DNA from: Actinokineospora auranticolor
Lineage (GTDB): Bacteria > Actinomycetota > Actinomycetes > Mycobacteriales > Pseudonocardiaceae
Assembly (NCBI RefSeq): GCF_002934265.1
Contig: NZ_PTIX01000004.1
Location: 310,001-374,000 of the forward strand
DNA: 64,000 nucleotides
Direction of reading: 5' to 3'
Part shown: positions 6,143 to 38,373 of the stretch, in pieces
How positions within the stretch are numbered: position 1 is the stretch's first letter
Layout of the letters: each line of letters begins with the position of its first letter
Program-made: the position numbers and the translations under genes
Notes under the pieces: model-generated
Database searches by the model: none
Seen by the model: the letters and a program-made list of their open reading frames with translations, nothing else
Told to the model about the DNA's origin: nothing

Positions 6143-7162
6143 CTACGCGGGCGGCGTCGGGGGGAACAGCCGACCCATCGGCGGCTGGATCCCCGCCTCC
6201 TCGATCGCGCCCATCGCCCGCGCCCGCAGCGCCCGCTGCACGGCCCACTGCCTGCCCGGCCGGACCTTGACGGTCATCCGGATGGTGATGCTCTCCGGCG
6301 TCACCTTCTCCACGCCGAGCACCTCCGGCGGCTCGATGACGTCCGCCGACATCTGCTCCTCCGCCACCGCGTCGCCGATGACCTTGGCGAGCAGGTCGGT
6401 GACCGCGTCCACGTCCGCGCCGTAGCCGACCGGCAGGTCGACCACCGCGACCGCGAAGCCCTGGCTGGAGTTGCCGACCCGGAGGATCTCGCCGTTGCGC
6501 ACGTACCACACGGTGCCGTTGACGTCACGCAGCGTGGTCACCCGCAGTCCGACCGCCTCGATCGTGCCGCTGGCCTCGCCGACGTCCACCACGTCACCGA
6601 CGCCGTACTGGTCCTCCAGCATCATGAAGATCCCGGACAGGAAGTCCTTGACCAGGTTCTGCGCGCCGAACCCGAGCGCGACGCCGACGATGCCCGCCGA
6701 GGCGATGATCGGGCCCAGCTGCACCCCCAGCTCGCCGAGCGCGAGGATGAACGCCAGCCCGTAGACCAGGAACGTCACCACGGACTTGAGCACCGAGCCG
6801 ATGGTCCTGGCCCGCTGCGCGCGCCGCTCCGAGACCACCAGCGAGCCCAGCGCCTGCGGTGCCCGCTCCTTGAGCGGCCGCAGCAGCGCGGGCGTCTTGC
6901 CGTTGCCCGAGGTCAGCTTGTCGATGAGCCTGCGCACGGCCAGCCGGATCAGGAACGCCACCACGAAGATCAGCAGGATCTTCAGCGGCTTGGCCACCAG
7001 CCAGCCCGCGGAGGCCGCCAGCCACTCGTTCCCGGTCAGCCGCCACACCTCGGCGCACCACGAGCCGTCCTCGGTGATGCACTTCGGCGGCGCCGTGATG
7101 AACGGGAGGTCGGCGCGGAGGAACCCGGTCGGGAGTAGCGCGGGGATCAGCTCGGGAGTCAT
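6143..7162 (-). CDS. Small-conductance mechanosensitive channel, MscS family
   Basis: A 339-residue inner-membrane channel expected to open under membrane tension and release solutes on osmotic downshift. Three hydrophobic helices are visible: about 55-75, 115-135 and the pore-lining TM3 around 140-165 (IIASAGIVGVALGFGAQNLV), which is the signature of the family. The beta domain follows (GDVVDVGEASGTIEAVGLRVTTLR) and then the alpha/beta cytoplasmic domain. The start is the ATG at 7162, with a TATCGT hexamer nine bases upstream suggesting a leaderless or short-leader transcript. First gene of the mscS-glbO-aglA group. Confidence 0.9.
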   Translation of the reverse strand: MTPELIPALLPTGFLRADLPFITAPPKCITEDGSWCAEVWRLTGNEWLAASAGWLVAKPLKILLIFVVAFLIRLAVRRLIDKLTSGNGKTPALLRPLKERAPQALGSLVVSERRAQRARTIGSVLKSVVTFLVYGLAFILALGELGVQLGPIIASAGIVGVALGFGAQNLVKDFLSGIFMMLEDQYGVGDVVDVGEASGTIEAVGLRVTTLRDVNGTVWYVRNGEILRVGNSSQGFAVAVVDLPVGYGADVDAVTDLLAKVIGDAVAEEQMSADVIEPPEVLGVEKVTPESITIRMTVKVRPGRQWAVQRALRARAMGAIEEAGIQPPMGRLFPPTPPA

Positions 7163-7339
7163 CGAGCGCGACGATAGCCGGGTGGCGTGAACGCCCCGAA
7201 CCGGGCGCCCCCGGCGGCTGCGCGCCGCGGGTGGGTTCACCGTGATTTAGCTGGGCGATCCGGGACACGTCACATAACACACGTGCGTTCCGGGTCGGGT
7301 TTGTGGTCGACTTAGGCCAGCACCGGTGGAGGTGGTCGA

Positions 7340-8035
7340 GTGCCAGACCGACAACCGACCCGCTCCGGCGCGCCCTCGGGGCACGCGCCGGGGCCGAAGC
7401 TTTGCCCGGACCCGGGTCACCCGGGTCCCGCGCTCACGCGCGCCAGGGCCGCCCCGAGCGCTGTCGTGGCCGTCCCGACCGGTCCGCCGGTCGTGGCCGT
7501 CCCCGCGCCGGTCCCCTCGTGGGGCAGGCGCCGGGTGCTGCTGCTCAACACGACCTTCGAGCCGCTGACCGCGCTGTCGCTGCGCCGTGCCGTCGTGCTG
7601 GTGGTCTGCGGCAAGGCCGAGGTCGTGCACGGTGACCCGGCGGGTCTGGTCGTGCACTCCGCGACGTCGAACGTGGTGGTCCCCTCGGTGATCCGGCTCA
7701 GCAGCTACGTCCGCGTGCCCTACCGCGGGCGGGTGCCGCTGACCAGGGCCGGGCTGATGCACCGCGACCGGTACCGCTGCGCCTACTGCGGTGGCCGCGC
7801 GGAGACGATAGACCACGTGGTCCCGCGCAGCCGCGGGGGTCAGCACACGTGGCAGAACTGCGTCGCCTGCTGCGCCAAGTGCAACCACCGCAAGGCGGAC
7901 AAGATGCTCGCCGAGCTGGGCTGGCGCCTGCGCGTGGTCCCCAACGCCCCGCGCGGCGCGCACTGGCGGCTGCTGGCCGGTGTCGTGGACACCGATCCGC
8001 TGTGGCTGCCCTACCTGGGCGAACCCGCCGCCTAG
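7340..8035 (+). CDS. HNH endonuclease family protein, Rv2469c-like
   Basis: The core begins near residue 64 with RRVLLLNTTFEPLTALSLRR, the conserved opening of this actinobacterial HNH family. The HNH domain follows at about 145-195: DRYRCAYCGGRAETIDHVVPRSRG and NCVACCAKCNHRKAD, with two CxxC zinc-binding pairs and the DH catalytic dyad. The protein probably cuts or nicks DNA; the target is unknown. The first 60 residues are Pro/Ala-rich and include DNA resembling the repeats of the neighbouring gene, so a start further downstream (a GTG around 7468) is possible. Convergent with the GTRVT-repeat gene, sharing one CTAG for both stops. Confidence 0.85.
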   Translation: MPDRQPTRSGAPSGHAPGPKLCPDPGHPGPALTRARAAPSAVVAVPTGPPVVAVPAPVPSWGRRRVLLLNTTFEPLTALSLRRAVVLVVCGKAEVVHGDPAGLVVHSATSNVVVPSVIRLSSYVRVPYRGRVPLTRAGLMHRDRYRCAYCGGRAETIDHVVPRSRGGQHTWQNCVACCAKCNHRKADKMLAELGWRLRVVPNAPRGAHWRLLAGVVDTDPLWLPYLGEPAA

Positions 8036-8553
8036 GCGGCCGTGACGCGGGTGCCCGCGGTGACCCTGGTGCCGCGGGTCACCCGGGTGCCGCGCGTGAC
8101 GCGCGTGCCCCGGTCGACCAGCGAGGTGACCCGGGTACCGCACTCCAGCAGCGCCGTGACCCGGGTACCCCGGGTGACGCGCGTCCCCGCTTCGAGCCGC
8201 GAGGTCACGCGGGTGCCCCGGGTGACGCGCGTACCCCGGGTGACGCGGGTGCCGCACTCCAGCAGCGAGGTGACGCGGGTACCGCGGGTCACCCTGGTTC
8301 CCCTGGTGACCCGGGTGCCGCTCTCCGGCAGGAACGTCACCCGCGTGCCGCTCTCGAGCAGTGCGGTCACCCGGGTGCCCCGGTCCTGGGACGTGACCCT
8401 GGTGCCGCGGGTCACTCTCGTGCCACGCTCGGCGGCGGTGACCCGGGTTCCCCGGGTCGCGCGAGTACCCATCAGCATTCGGCCACCCTGTTGCGTCTTG
8501 TCAGCCATCTGGGTGATGATCTTGTCCGCGTGGCGGGAAGCGATGGTGTACAT
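8032..8553 (-). CDS. GTRVT-repeat protein, function unknown
   Basis: A 173-residue protein: a 29-residue head (MYTIASRHADKIITQMADKT then QQGGRMLM) followed to the last residue by 19 copies of Gly-Thr-Arg-Val-Thr (one is GTRAT). Copies are separated by a single Arg or Ala, or by short spacers such as AAER, SQDR, ALLES, FLPES, SLLEC, SRLEA and SLVDR. AGGAGG lies seven bases before the ATG, a strong ribosome site that decides the start. Arg is encoded as CGG, CGC and AGG in different copies, so the peptide is conserved where the DNA is not; this supports this strand over the antisense frame. The repeat is strongly basic and could form a beta-solenoid or bind nucleic acid. I do not recognise a family. 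Confidence 0.72.
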   Translation of the reverse strand: MYTIASRHADKIITQMADKTQQGGRMLMGTRATRGTRVTAAERGTRVTRGTRVTSQDRGTRVTALLESGTRVTFLPESGTRVTRGTRVTRGTRVTSLLECGTRVTRGTRVTRGTRVTSRLEAGTRVTRGTRVTALLECGTRVTSLVDRGTRVTRGTRVTRGTRVTAGTRVTAA

Positions 8554-8902
8554 GGAGTGGCCTCCTGAGGGCGGTTGCGCGTCTGGAGAGCGGAAGGTCG
8601 TCTTCGCAAGGGCCGTACAGGTGAAAGCTATGGCGCAGATCGGTAACGGACAAGACGTCCGGCCCTCCCAAGGGCTGCAACCTGCTGGTTTGGGGCCGTT
8701 CGCCCCTTGTCGATAGGCAGAAAGCGCTACCCCCGAGGACGGCACTCGGCGCAGCAGCCTTACCAGGAGAGCACCAACCACTCACGCGGTGCGACCACCG
8801 GGTTGCCCACCCGGAGCGGTGTTCACACCCCGGGGTCACCGGGGTAGGTCCCAGCCGGAGGTCTCGCGGCCGGTCACGCGCCTGTCGGCTACCGTATCCG
8901 CT
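8554..8902. other. Divergent intergenic region (349 bp) between GTRVT-repeat and ctaJ-like genes
   Basis: No convincing gene. The left end holds the AGGAGG ribosome site of the minus-strand repeat gene. The right end holds a TACCGT hexamer (8890-8895) eight bases before the GTG of the CtaJ-like gene. The middle is less GC-biased than the surroundings (around 8640-8730) and probably carries both promoters. Reading frames crossing it lack ribosome sites. Confidence 0.5.
8890..8895 (+). promoter_or_regulatory. -10-like hexamer TACCGT, leaderless start
   Basis: TACCGT matches the actinobacterial TANNNT -10 pattern and ends eight bases before the GTG at 8903. No purine-rich ribosome site lies between, so the mRNA probably begins at the start codon. 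Confidence 0.45.
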
Positions 8903-9163
8903 GTGACGCTCGTCGAGACCCTTCTCGTCTTCGCGGCGATCCCGCTGGCCATCTACGGCGTGATCGCCCTGTTGACGCTGCGCGAGAAGTTCGCCAAGGC
9001 CCCGCGCTACCGCCCCGGCCAGGAGTGGGAGCACGAGCCCGTGTGGTGGACCGCCAACCCCGCCGGGCTCGGTGCGGCGCACGCCGCCCACCACACCCCG
9101 CACAACGACGCCCCGGCCCAGCCGGTGCGCACCGCGAAGGGAGGTGCTCGTGGTGGCTGGTGA
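8903..9163 (+). CDS. ctaJ: CtaJ-like small membrane subunit of aa3-type cytochrome oxidase
   Basis: An 86-residue protein with one N-terminal membrane helix (residues 5-25, VETLLVFAAIPLAIYGVIAL) and a cytoplasmic tail containing RYRPGQEWEHEPVWWTANPAG. This layout and motif match the small protein encoded near pepN in mycobacteria, identified as accessory subunit CtaJ of the bcc-aa3 supercomplex. The assignment rests on my recall of that family. The start is a GTG with a -10-like hexamer eight bases upstream. The end overlaps the next gene by 14 bases, so both are likely translated together. Confidence 0.65.
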   Translation: MTLVETLLVFAAIPLAIYGVIALLTLREKFAKAPRYRPGQEWEHEPVWWTANPAGLGAAHAAHHTPHNDAPAQPVRTAKGGARGGW

Positions 9164-9647
9164 ACTCGCCCACCGCAACACCGCCGACACGGTCCTCGAG
9201 GACCCGGAGCACGGCTACGGCGCGGCCCGCACGGCCAGCGGCCGGATCTCCGTCGCCCGGCAGAAGGAGGTCGCGCCCCCGGGTCTGCCGTTCAACACCG
9301 TCCAGCTCACCCGGCTGGACGAGGCGCTGACCCTGGCCTCCCGGGCCACCGGCATCGCCTTCAGCGTCTACCTCGGCGACCTGGGCAACGACTCCCGGGA
9401 CCGGGCGGAGGAGCTGCACGCGACCATCCCCGACTCGGCGGACGCGGTCCTGATCGCGGTCTCCCCGGGCAAGCGCCGGGTGGAGATCGTCACCGGCACC
9501 GAGTCGTCCCGCAGGCTGACCGACCGGGGCTGCAACCTGGCCGTCATGAGCATGGTGGCCTCCTTCAAGGAGGGCGACCTGATCGGTGGCCTGGTGAGCG
9601 CCCTGCGCATGCTGGCGGACCAGGCGGGCCACGCCCCCCGGCGCTGA
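9150..9647 (+). CDS. DUF5130 / TPM-like protein, Rv2468c-like
   Basis: A 165-residue protein. The N-terminal 45 residues are variable; the rest resembles the TPM/DUF5130 fold, with AFSVYLGDLGNDSRDRAEELHATI, a run ending AVLIAVSPGKRRVEIVTG, and SFKEGDLIGGLVSALRM near the end. GGGAGG precedes the tandem GTG GTG at 9150 and 9153; either could be the start. The gene overlaps the CtaJ-like gene by 14 bases and is followed at once by a strong terminator. The mycobacterial counterpart sits at the same place beside pepN. The biochemical role is unknown. Confidence 0.72.
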   Translation: MVAGELAHRNTADTVLEDPEHGYGAARTASGRISVARQKEVAPPGLPFNTVQLTRLDEALTLASRATGIAFSVYLGDLGNDSRDRAEELHATIPDSADAVLIAVSPGKRRVEIVTGTESSRRLTDRGCNLAVMSMVASFKEGDLIGGLVSALRMLADQAGHAPRR

Positions 9648-37113: not shown

Positions 37114-38246
37114 CTACACCCGATCCGGTGAATTTCGCCGACAACGAGCGACCGTCGCCGGGGATGAACCCGAATAATCTTCCAGCCTTCGAGCTGATTA
37201 ATTACCTGCCCCGCCACCGGATTCAGTAGGAAATTAATCCAACACCACGCGCTCCCGCGAACCCACCCACGAACCCGTGCGCCCTATTCGCACCGCACCT
37301 CTGCTCACCCACCCGCCCGGACGTTACCCACTCGCGGAGCGCTGCCCCGACATACAGGGGTTGCCCACCGGGCCCTCTAGCTCACCCGGCCTCTCTCGCT
37401 CACCCGGTGCTGTGCTGCCTACCTGGCGGTCTCTCGCTCACCTGGCGCCGCGTTGCCCACTTGGCGCTCTCTCGCCTACTCGGCGCTGCGCTGCTGGACC
37501 GGTGTTGCGCCGCCGGACCGGTTTCGCCTGTTGGACGACCGGTGCGCTGCTGGGCCGGTACTGCCCCGCTAGACCGGTGCGTTGGCAGGGCAGCGCTGCC
37601 TCGCGGACGGGCGCTTGCCTCACCCAACTGGTGGCGCCTTGCCGGAGTTTGCCCTCCCGACAAGGTGGCGTCGCCACCCAGCCTGGCGAGCAGACTGGCC
37701 CAGCGCACGGCCCGGAGGTGTGGCGCGGGCTCGACCACCACCCGCCTAGCGGAGGCGATGGCGCTTCTCCACCCGACGCGGCGCTCAGCTCGCTGCCCCA
37801 TGGCTGGCGGTGGGCAAAGGCACGCTCGGGCCACCTGGCAGCCGGGCTCGTGCGGTAGCAGGCCCGTCGCCCTGATAGGGCTCCGGCCCGCCCGGACTTG
37901 GCACCGGCAGGTGCCAGCCCCGCCAGGTCTCGCCCTCGCCGGATCCAGCTCTGCCCGTTCAGCCCGGCCGGAGCCGGCTCTCGGGCTCAGTCCCGCCGGA
38001 GCCCAAGCCATGCCACACCCGGTCTGCGGGAGGCAGCCCGGCCGGAGCCGGTCTTGCCCGGTCCGCGCCCCGTCAGGCGCCAGCCCTGCCAGCCTTGCCA
38101 GGCGCCAGCCTTGCCAGCCCTGCTGGCTCTGTTCGCCCCTTCGCCCGACGGGCCAGCCGACAGGCACGTGCCAGCGCGTCAGGTCGGCCCACCTGGTGGC
38201 GGATGCGTGTCGAGCTTGCCCGCGCTCGGCCCAGTGGGCTCGCATT

Positions 38247-38373
38247 GCCTCGGTGCCTCGGTGCCTCGGTGCCTCGGTGCCTCGGTGCCTCGGTGCCTCG
38301 GTGCCTCGGTGCCTCGGTGCCTCGGTGCCTCGGTGCCTCGGTGCCTCGGTGCCTCGGTGCCTCGGTGCCTCGG
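38247..38373. repeat. Octanucleotide tandem array, about 16 copies of GCCTCGGT
   Basis: 127 bases of uninterrupted 8-bp repeat, ending 70 bases past the end of the FdhF-type gene. Because 8 is not a multiple of 3, all three plus-strand frames read the same octapeptide (PRCLGASV) and all minus frames read RHRGTEAP. Expected to vary in length by slippage. Confidence 0.95.

Follow-up and report, generated by a model that had tools for sequence, protein, structure and literature searches.

A conserved array gene of Pseudonocardiaceae carries lineage-specific pentads and may encode a rod-like beta-solenoid

The 64,000-nucleotide stretch of the Actinokineospora auranticolor genome analysed here (contig NZ_PTIX01000004.1, positions 310,001 to 374,000; hereafter the window) carries on its minus strand an array gene, whose product consists of a short leader and a long series of five-residue words, the pentads. 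This gene belongs to a real, conserved, and unnamed gene family. It occurs in 38 of the 46 genera sampled from Pseudonocardiaceae, a family with many antibiotic producers, and no curated family was found that covers its different pentad types. The array gene is a protein-coding gene and not a DNA repeat. Its pentad, as judged from sequence comparison, is inherited, with repeated changes of the whole array. We favour, at about even chances, the reading that this is a dedicated Pseudonocardiaceae gene whose product would be a rod-like beta-solenoid of variable length, probably residing in the cytosol. The puzzle lies in the fact that up to 60 copies are identical as protein despite diverging codons, yet the whole word differs in other lineages. 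As a tree of the neighbouring genes and many pentad types are at hand, the constraint on the word can be tested by comparison.

Results

The array is maintained as a protein

Translation of the minus-strand frame yields an open 173-residue product and confirms overall what had been observed in a sequence-only reading of the window. That reading counted 19 GTRVT copies from residue 30; 18 exact copies are present, while the remaining pentad is a GTRAT that opens the array at residue 29. The copies are joined, as described, by short spacers, either R or A or four to five residues (AAER, SQDR, ALLES, FLPES, SLLEC, SRLEA, ALLEC, SLVDR), and the ribosome site, claimed to be strong, is a good one (Table 1). 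The Arg codon indeed switches under a constant peptide (CGG 7, CGC 7, AGG 3, and AGA 1 in the 18 copies). That these switches alter residues in antisense holds for most differences in two antisense frames but fails for the third, which reads VTRVP and in which 25 of 29 differences are silent; in this comparison of the window copies the sense frame is synonymous by construction.

Selection on the protein, which the sequence-only reading had suggested, is strongly supported by codon counts among copies, by the sense frame compared with antisense, and by ortholog pairs. Both codon counts cover copies with at least 10 of 15 bases matching the array consensus. Of 1807 copies collected by nucleotide similarity, 1775 are in frame; codon differences among the copies number 3003 synonymous versus 205 non-synonymous, where random single changes in GTRVT would be 36% synonymous. 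Across 126 arrays, the sense frame shows 4174 synonymous and 126 non-synonymous differences, compared with 2786 and 719 in the VTRVP-type antisense frame, which places it clearly ahead of this frame, in which the wobble bases are aligned and many changes are silent as well. Further, 11 pairs of close, equally long orthologs from other genomes, three of these pairs from one trio and all read with non-synonymous counts inflated by unit shifts, display 176 synonymous and 28 non-synonymous differences in 767 pentad codons, 56 and 48 in 327 spacer codons, and 13 and 32 in 284 leader codons; the leaders are relaxed. In SVRIT and GVRIS arrays, even first- and second-base changes leave the residue intact, e.g., AGY versus TCN serine codons, as counted with at most one residue change admitted per copy.

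Moreover, no array carries its own word outside the frame, as searched within 400 bases of start or stop in the three frames of the strand in 128 arrays, a set distinct by exact DNA only and without the GVRIE array of locus L021. A broken frame with a persisting DNA repeat, named in the sequence-only reading as the opposing case, was not seen. A pure DNA repeat is ruled out by the codon tests and by the lack of the own word past the frame ends. The reading as a DNA or RNA repeat whose frame is open by accident, with DNA rather than protein conserved, could appeal to a G+C-rich and nearly palindromic unit (ACCCGGGT) and to the fact that some antisense frame is open in 108 of 126 arrays, but it is extremely improbable in view of the synonymous excess, the residue-neutral changes in SVRIT and GVRIS arrays, the in-frame copies, and the presence of a ribosome site and a promoter element.

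This promoter comprises a TTG in the -35 position, a spacer of 17 bases in the window, and a TANNTT-like box, leading into TTTCACCTGTAYGGNYCTTGC, the conserved 21-bp element (Table 1). This element was recovered within five mismatches at 122 of the 127 loci with enough upstream DNA and at 0 of 300 random controls. In the genome of the window, one match occurs at up to three mismatches, as does one for the backward control. Eight of 296 genomes outside the genus contain one two-mismatch match each; as the backward control gives about six, matches outside the family are attributed to chance. Thus, the array gene appears to possess its own promoter.

The array gene is conserved at one locus

The array gene faces a convergent HNH endonuclease gene, as the sequence-only reading had stated and Pfam confirms, and is flanked on its other side by the divergent ctaJ and then a DUF5130 gene (Table 1). 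In a protein search, each of the 16 genomes of the genus gave a match, the 8.43 Mb source genome of the window included, with 16 to 60 words each, counted as GTR[VA]T; the nearest named relatives of the window locus belong to Actinokineospora. A repeat query (E 0.001) matched 147 of 297 family genomes, although some of these matches are weak and possibly due to chance. Some genome-search matches run across one or two stop codons. An HNH relative is present in 128 of 130 family genomes, and HNH and ctaJ were each found in 48 of 50 loci checked, within the fetched stretch.

The stretch beyond HNH was fetched for 60 family and 20 outgroup loci. Arrays with at least four words are present in 44 of the former and in none of the latter, and they occupy 34 of 42 genera; the window's genus and three genera from earlier loci complete the number given above. 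As other genera carry the same class of array at this very locus, chance is excluded. Of the 80 named loci, taken from 332 as the best in HNH similarity and overlapping in genomes with the unnamed ones, 73 carry an array of at least three words. The other seven are six Actinomycetospora loci and one unclassified Pseudonocardiaceae bin. In seven array-less loci, ctaJ starts 94 to 180 bases from the beginning of the fetched stretch and almost touches HNH. At loci of the Streptoalloteichus and Longimycelium type, the adjoining gene is not ctaJ. The 128-array set spans copy numbers of 3 to 60.

A relocated array was sought with a single GVRIS query in 18 array-less genomes (16 of the family), giving one weak match (E 0.007). 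A search across the taxonomic class, covering 394 genomes, returned matches at 1e-5 in 18 genomes, all outside the family, and in three more inside it. Of the 17 outside-family loci, 16 were inspected for [GSDA][TVI]R[VI]x, and these contained at most three such words each, except for L067, which belongs to another family of the same class and has a 542-residue open frame; it has 12 such words, ten of them GTRVP. A mobile or phage origin was considered and rejected: the window protein has no match in phages, plasmids, or viral contigs, and a Lentzea array has none in phages. A GVRIS array query matched three plasmid records (one Halocatena, two Erwinia), and the best of these, that from Halocatena, corresponds to the reverse strand of a Thr-rich stretch in an annotated gene.

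Some individual loci deserve mention. Locus L187 (JOAA01000003.1), labelled Rhodococcus rhodnii, groups with Kibdelosporangium and has a GTRVT array, so that the strain is probably mislabelled. In one genome (G004), the array reaches the end of one contig, and more of the same array opens another contig beside HNH (contigs C98 and C7; locus L016). The Actinokineospora xionganensis array (L006 and L173) comprises 61 copies but no more than 18 distinct 15-base words, which probably reflects a recent expansion.

The pentad is pure within arrays and changes as a block

The pentads at the locus are GTRVT, SVRIT, GVRIS, GTRIT, GVRIH, GVRIE, GVRVT, GIRVT, GIRVN, GVRIN, and GVRVN, and the form [GS]-[TVI]-R-[VI]-polar covers every type. 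Of the high Arg and Thr content noted in the sequence-only reading, Arg is common to all pentads, while Thr is not general. Within arrays of the three commonest types, 1248 of 1248, 642 of 643, and 216 of 219 words of the searched class are of the array's own type, a count based on a fixed word pattern that odd words escape. A looser count finds 62 residue departures among 2346 copies, and a second word appears twice or more in 4 of 128 arrays.

On a quick tree of ctaJ plus DUF5130 (121 rows, several of them long; identical rows merged; 46 of 118 branches open), the ten labels require 17 changes, compared with a mean of 67.5 after shuffling, and 12 when array-less loci are excluded. This tree covers all but 10 of the 142 loci, the omitted ones including all GVRIH rows. 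The difference between 17 and 67.5 changes indicates that the word is inherited and that its change en bloc has occurred repeatedly. In Kutzneria, arrays of three GVRVN copies and of 9-11 GIRVN copies suggest that a new word may arise when an array shrinks to few copies and then expands again.

Periodicity and profile matches give indirect support for a solenoid

The sequence-only reading had considered a beta-solenoid or a nucleic-acid-binding rod. The solenoid is supported indirectly for some arrays but not by the window protein's own model. GTRVT arrays are built mostly of hexads, SVRIT and GVRIS arrays of 8-9-residue units. Spacer identity peaks at lag 3 (z 9.5; 51 arrays with mostly one-residue spacers), a periodicity of sequence rather than a solved coil, and this three-hexad (18-residue) period holds for GTRVT-type arrays, the 8-9-residue types not being included. 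AlphaFold2 modelled one regular, 18-residue-periodic GTRVT array of Actinophytocola as a left-handed beta-helix that aligns with Hexapep-type folds.

Pfam scans covered 14 arrays, seven SVRIT and seven of five other pentad types. The cut-off of DUF2345 (PF10106), which we take to be the VgrG spike beta-helix, was exceeded by all seven SVRIT arrays and by none of the others, and the match is specific for residue order. Weak PDB sequence matches of SVRIT arrays include two VgrG chains. The Hexapep cut-off (PF00132) was passed by a single array, of the GVRIH type. The Hexapep hexad reads [LIV]-[GAED]-x2-[STAV]-x; V-T-R-G-T-R agrees with it at positions 1 and 5 and disagrees at position 2. In the window protein, matches to DUF2118, M23, PASTA, and GroES all remained under the cut-off (Pfam, and NCBIfam, which was run for this array alone), and neither a nucleic-acid-binding nor a transferase domain rose above a curated cut-off. 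Short phrog matches were given no weight. A literature search by exact pentad strings yielded nothing relevant.

Two observations weigh against a solenoid. The window protein alone was modelled with low confidence (predicted local distance difference test, pLDDT, of 44) and without a left-handed beta-helix, and the beta-helical spike matches of SVRIT arrays are accompanied by several unrelated profile matches.

Many arrays end in a tail resembling the tmRNA tag

LAA endings occur in 50 of 128 arrays (35 of 37 SVRIT, 10 of 64 GTRVT), while the window protein ends in VTAA. Among the tags of transfer-messenger RNA (tmRNA, ssrA) from eight genomes, seven have FALAA at their end, while that of the window's genome ends in DYDLAA. 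The array tails DFALAA, SEYALAA, and NDFSLAA resemble their hosts' own tags: at the Streptoalloteichus locus (G016), the array ends in GDFALAA and the host tag is RADFALAA, and in Goodfellowiella (G060), RSEYALAA corresponds to the tag QREFALAA. In contrast to the tmRNA tag, the array tail is encoded by the gene itself, and most GTRVT arrays, that of the window among them, lack it. By analogy, such tails may act as a built-in ClpXP signal; for the window's VTAA, the case is weaker.

Gene context of the window

Positions of the array gene, its putative expression signals, and its neighbours are given in Table 1. The HNH and array genes share CTAG at 8032-8035, which provides a stop codon on either strand. 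An Rfam scan of window positions 7000-9300 found no known RNA. Elsewhere in the window, at 38246-38373, the octamer TGCCTCGG forms a perfect 16-fold tandem repeat (100% match), with more repeats nearby (37366-38123).

Table 1. Features of the array locus. Coordinates refer to the whole 64,000-nucleotide window; the array gene is read on the minus strand.
Feature	Position	Strand	Description	Basis
Array gene	8032..8553	-	173-residue product: 28-residue leader, then 19 pentads (18 GTRVT, 1 GTRAT)	Translation, codons, relatives
Pentad array proper	8032..8469	-	Residues 29-173 and stop; C-terminus GTRVTAA	Translation
Leader MYTIASRHADKIITQMADKTQQGGRMLM	8470..8553	-		Translation
Ribosome binding site AGGAGG	8561..8566	-	7 bases before ATG	Sequence
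21-bp conserved element TTTCACCTGTACGGCCCTTGC	8606..8626	-	Overlaps end of -10 box and expected transcript start	
Candidate -10 box TAGCTT	8625..8630	-	Relatives have similar boxes at the same position	Read from sequence
Candidate -35 box TTGTCC	8648..8653	-	17-base spacer; TTG moderately conserved in relatives	Read from sequence
HNH endonuclease gene	7340..8035	+	Convergent with array gene	Pfam HNH_5, 1.4e-12
ctaJ, aa3-type oxidase subunit	8903..9163	+	Divergent neighbour of array gene	NCBIfam NF050118, 3.8e-30
DUF5130 / TPM-domain gene	9072..9647	+	Next after ctaJ; start codon provisional	Pfam, 6.2e-41

Discussion

A stacked rod and its alternatives

In the beta-solenoid that we favour, each pentad would provide one short strand and the glycine of the turn. 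The turn would be occupied by residue 1 (G or S), residues 2 (T, V, or I) and 4 (V or I) would point inward, and Arg 3 together with the polar residue 5 would point outward, while the spacer would form a corner or loop. GTRVT hexads would wind into a left-handed beta-helix, three of them to each coil, and the 8-9-residue units of SVRIT and GVRIS arrays probably a wider beta-helix. We propose that identical strands are stacked in register, so that copies would stay alike and the word would change as a block, whereas rod length and loops could vary freely. The Arg ladders on the outside could form the working surface of the rod and provide a face for multivalent binding. Where a lineage has a tmRNA-like tail, as many do, the rod might be handed to ClpXP and be short-lived. 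Taken whole, the interpretation given in the sequence-only reading is supported in part.

The main rival, possible but not probable in our estimate, is a disordered, multivalent array of linear motifs, in which the pentad would be a docking peptide for a lineage-specific partner and the whole a sponge or hub removed by ClpXP. It gains from spacers that are freer than the pentads in sequence and length, from a copy number that can be read as capacity, and from the low-confidence model of the window protein; an Arg between beta-branched residues would also suit a strand-docking peptide. Flexible linkers, however, need neither the regular unit lengths of 6 or 8-9 residues seen in the common types nor a three-unit spacer period, and the DUF2345 match depends on residue order. 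No partner was found, a systematic partner search not being possible.

Quite doubtful, although it extends the favoured solenoid, is the notion of a self-templating class of word-pure solenoids. Here, in-register stacking would force identity, the rods of different lineages could not mix, and the word would act as an assembly code, with an Arg ladder as the shared working surface and, in many lineages, a tail that sets the lifetime.

Two further alternatives have a slim chance each. A precursor of many copies of a short peptide, which a protease would release to serve as a signal or as a modified product and whose core would distinguish lineages like a pherotype, would fit an identical, repeated, and lineage-specific core between variable spacers. 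By eye, however, the leaders have no evident signal peptide, no cleavage residue is shared (the last spacer residue is mostly R in GTRVT arrays and D in SVRIT arrays), and the neighbours examined, HNH, ctaJ, and DUF5130, include no modifying enzyme. A polyanion-binding rod, with Arg ladders for DNA, RNA, or polyphosphate, would account for Arg in every pentad type and for the mean net charge of the GTRVT arrays (about +26) and of the GVRIS arrays (about +27). In addition, a 25-residue stretch of one SVRIT array matches a phrog that bears the name DNA binding protein (8.2e-06). SVRIT arrays of the same gene and locus, however, average -0.7, so that a general polyanion rod fits poorly, and the window protein lacks a nucleic-acid-binding domain, as noted above.

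If the solenoid reading is true, the family would offer a natural series of simple repeat rods with strands of 6 and 8-9 residues, as models for beta-helix folding.

Comparison with known systems

Precursors of ribosomally synthesized and post-translationally modified peptides (RiPPs) combine a conserved leader, a variable core, and a modifying enzyme, while in the array gene the leader is relaxed, the core is kept, and no such enzyme is found among the nearest neighbours. Pentapeptide-repeat proteins, with A(D/N)LxX words in a quadrilateral beta-helix, likewise contain a long array of five-residue words; the array words differ, spacers intervene, and this family was absent from the Pfam scans of the 14 arrays. 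AfsS, a small actinomycete regulator of 63 residues with three 12-residue repeats (PMC2267785), is alike as a short actinomycete protein with tandem repeats.

The VgrG spike beta-helix is approached by the SVRIT arrays through their DUF2345 matches and 8-9-residue units, but the 14 Pfam scans revealed no other spike domain, and the nearest neighbours (HNH, ctaJ, DUF5130) include no secretion-system gene. With left-handed beta-helices of the Hexapep type, the arrays would share hexads, three per coil according to model and periodicity, and an inward aliphatic residue. Most known members of this fold are acyltransferase domains, whose hexads are degenerate. In contrast, the array strand is one invariant word without an evident second domain, and 13 of the 14 arrays remain below the Hexapep cut-off. 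The fold itself may be a known one; we are aware of no precedent, however, for an array that is pure in its word and changes as a block from lineage to lineage.
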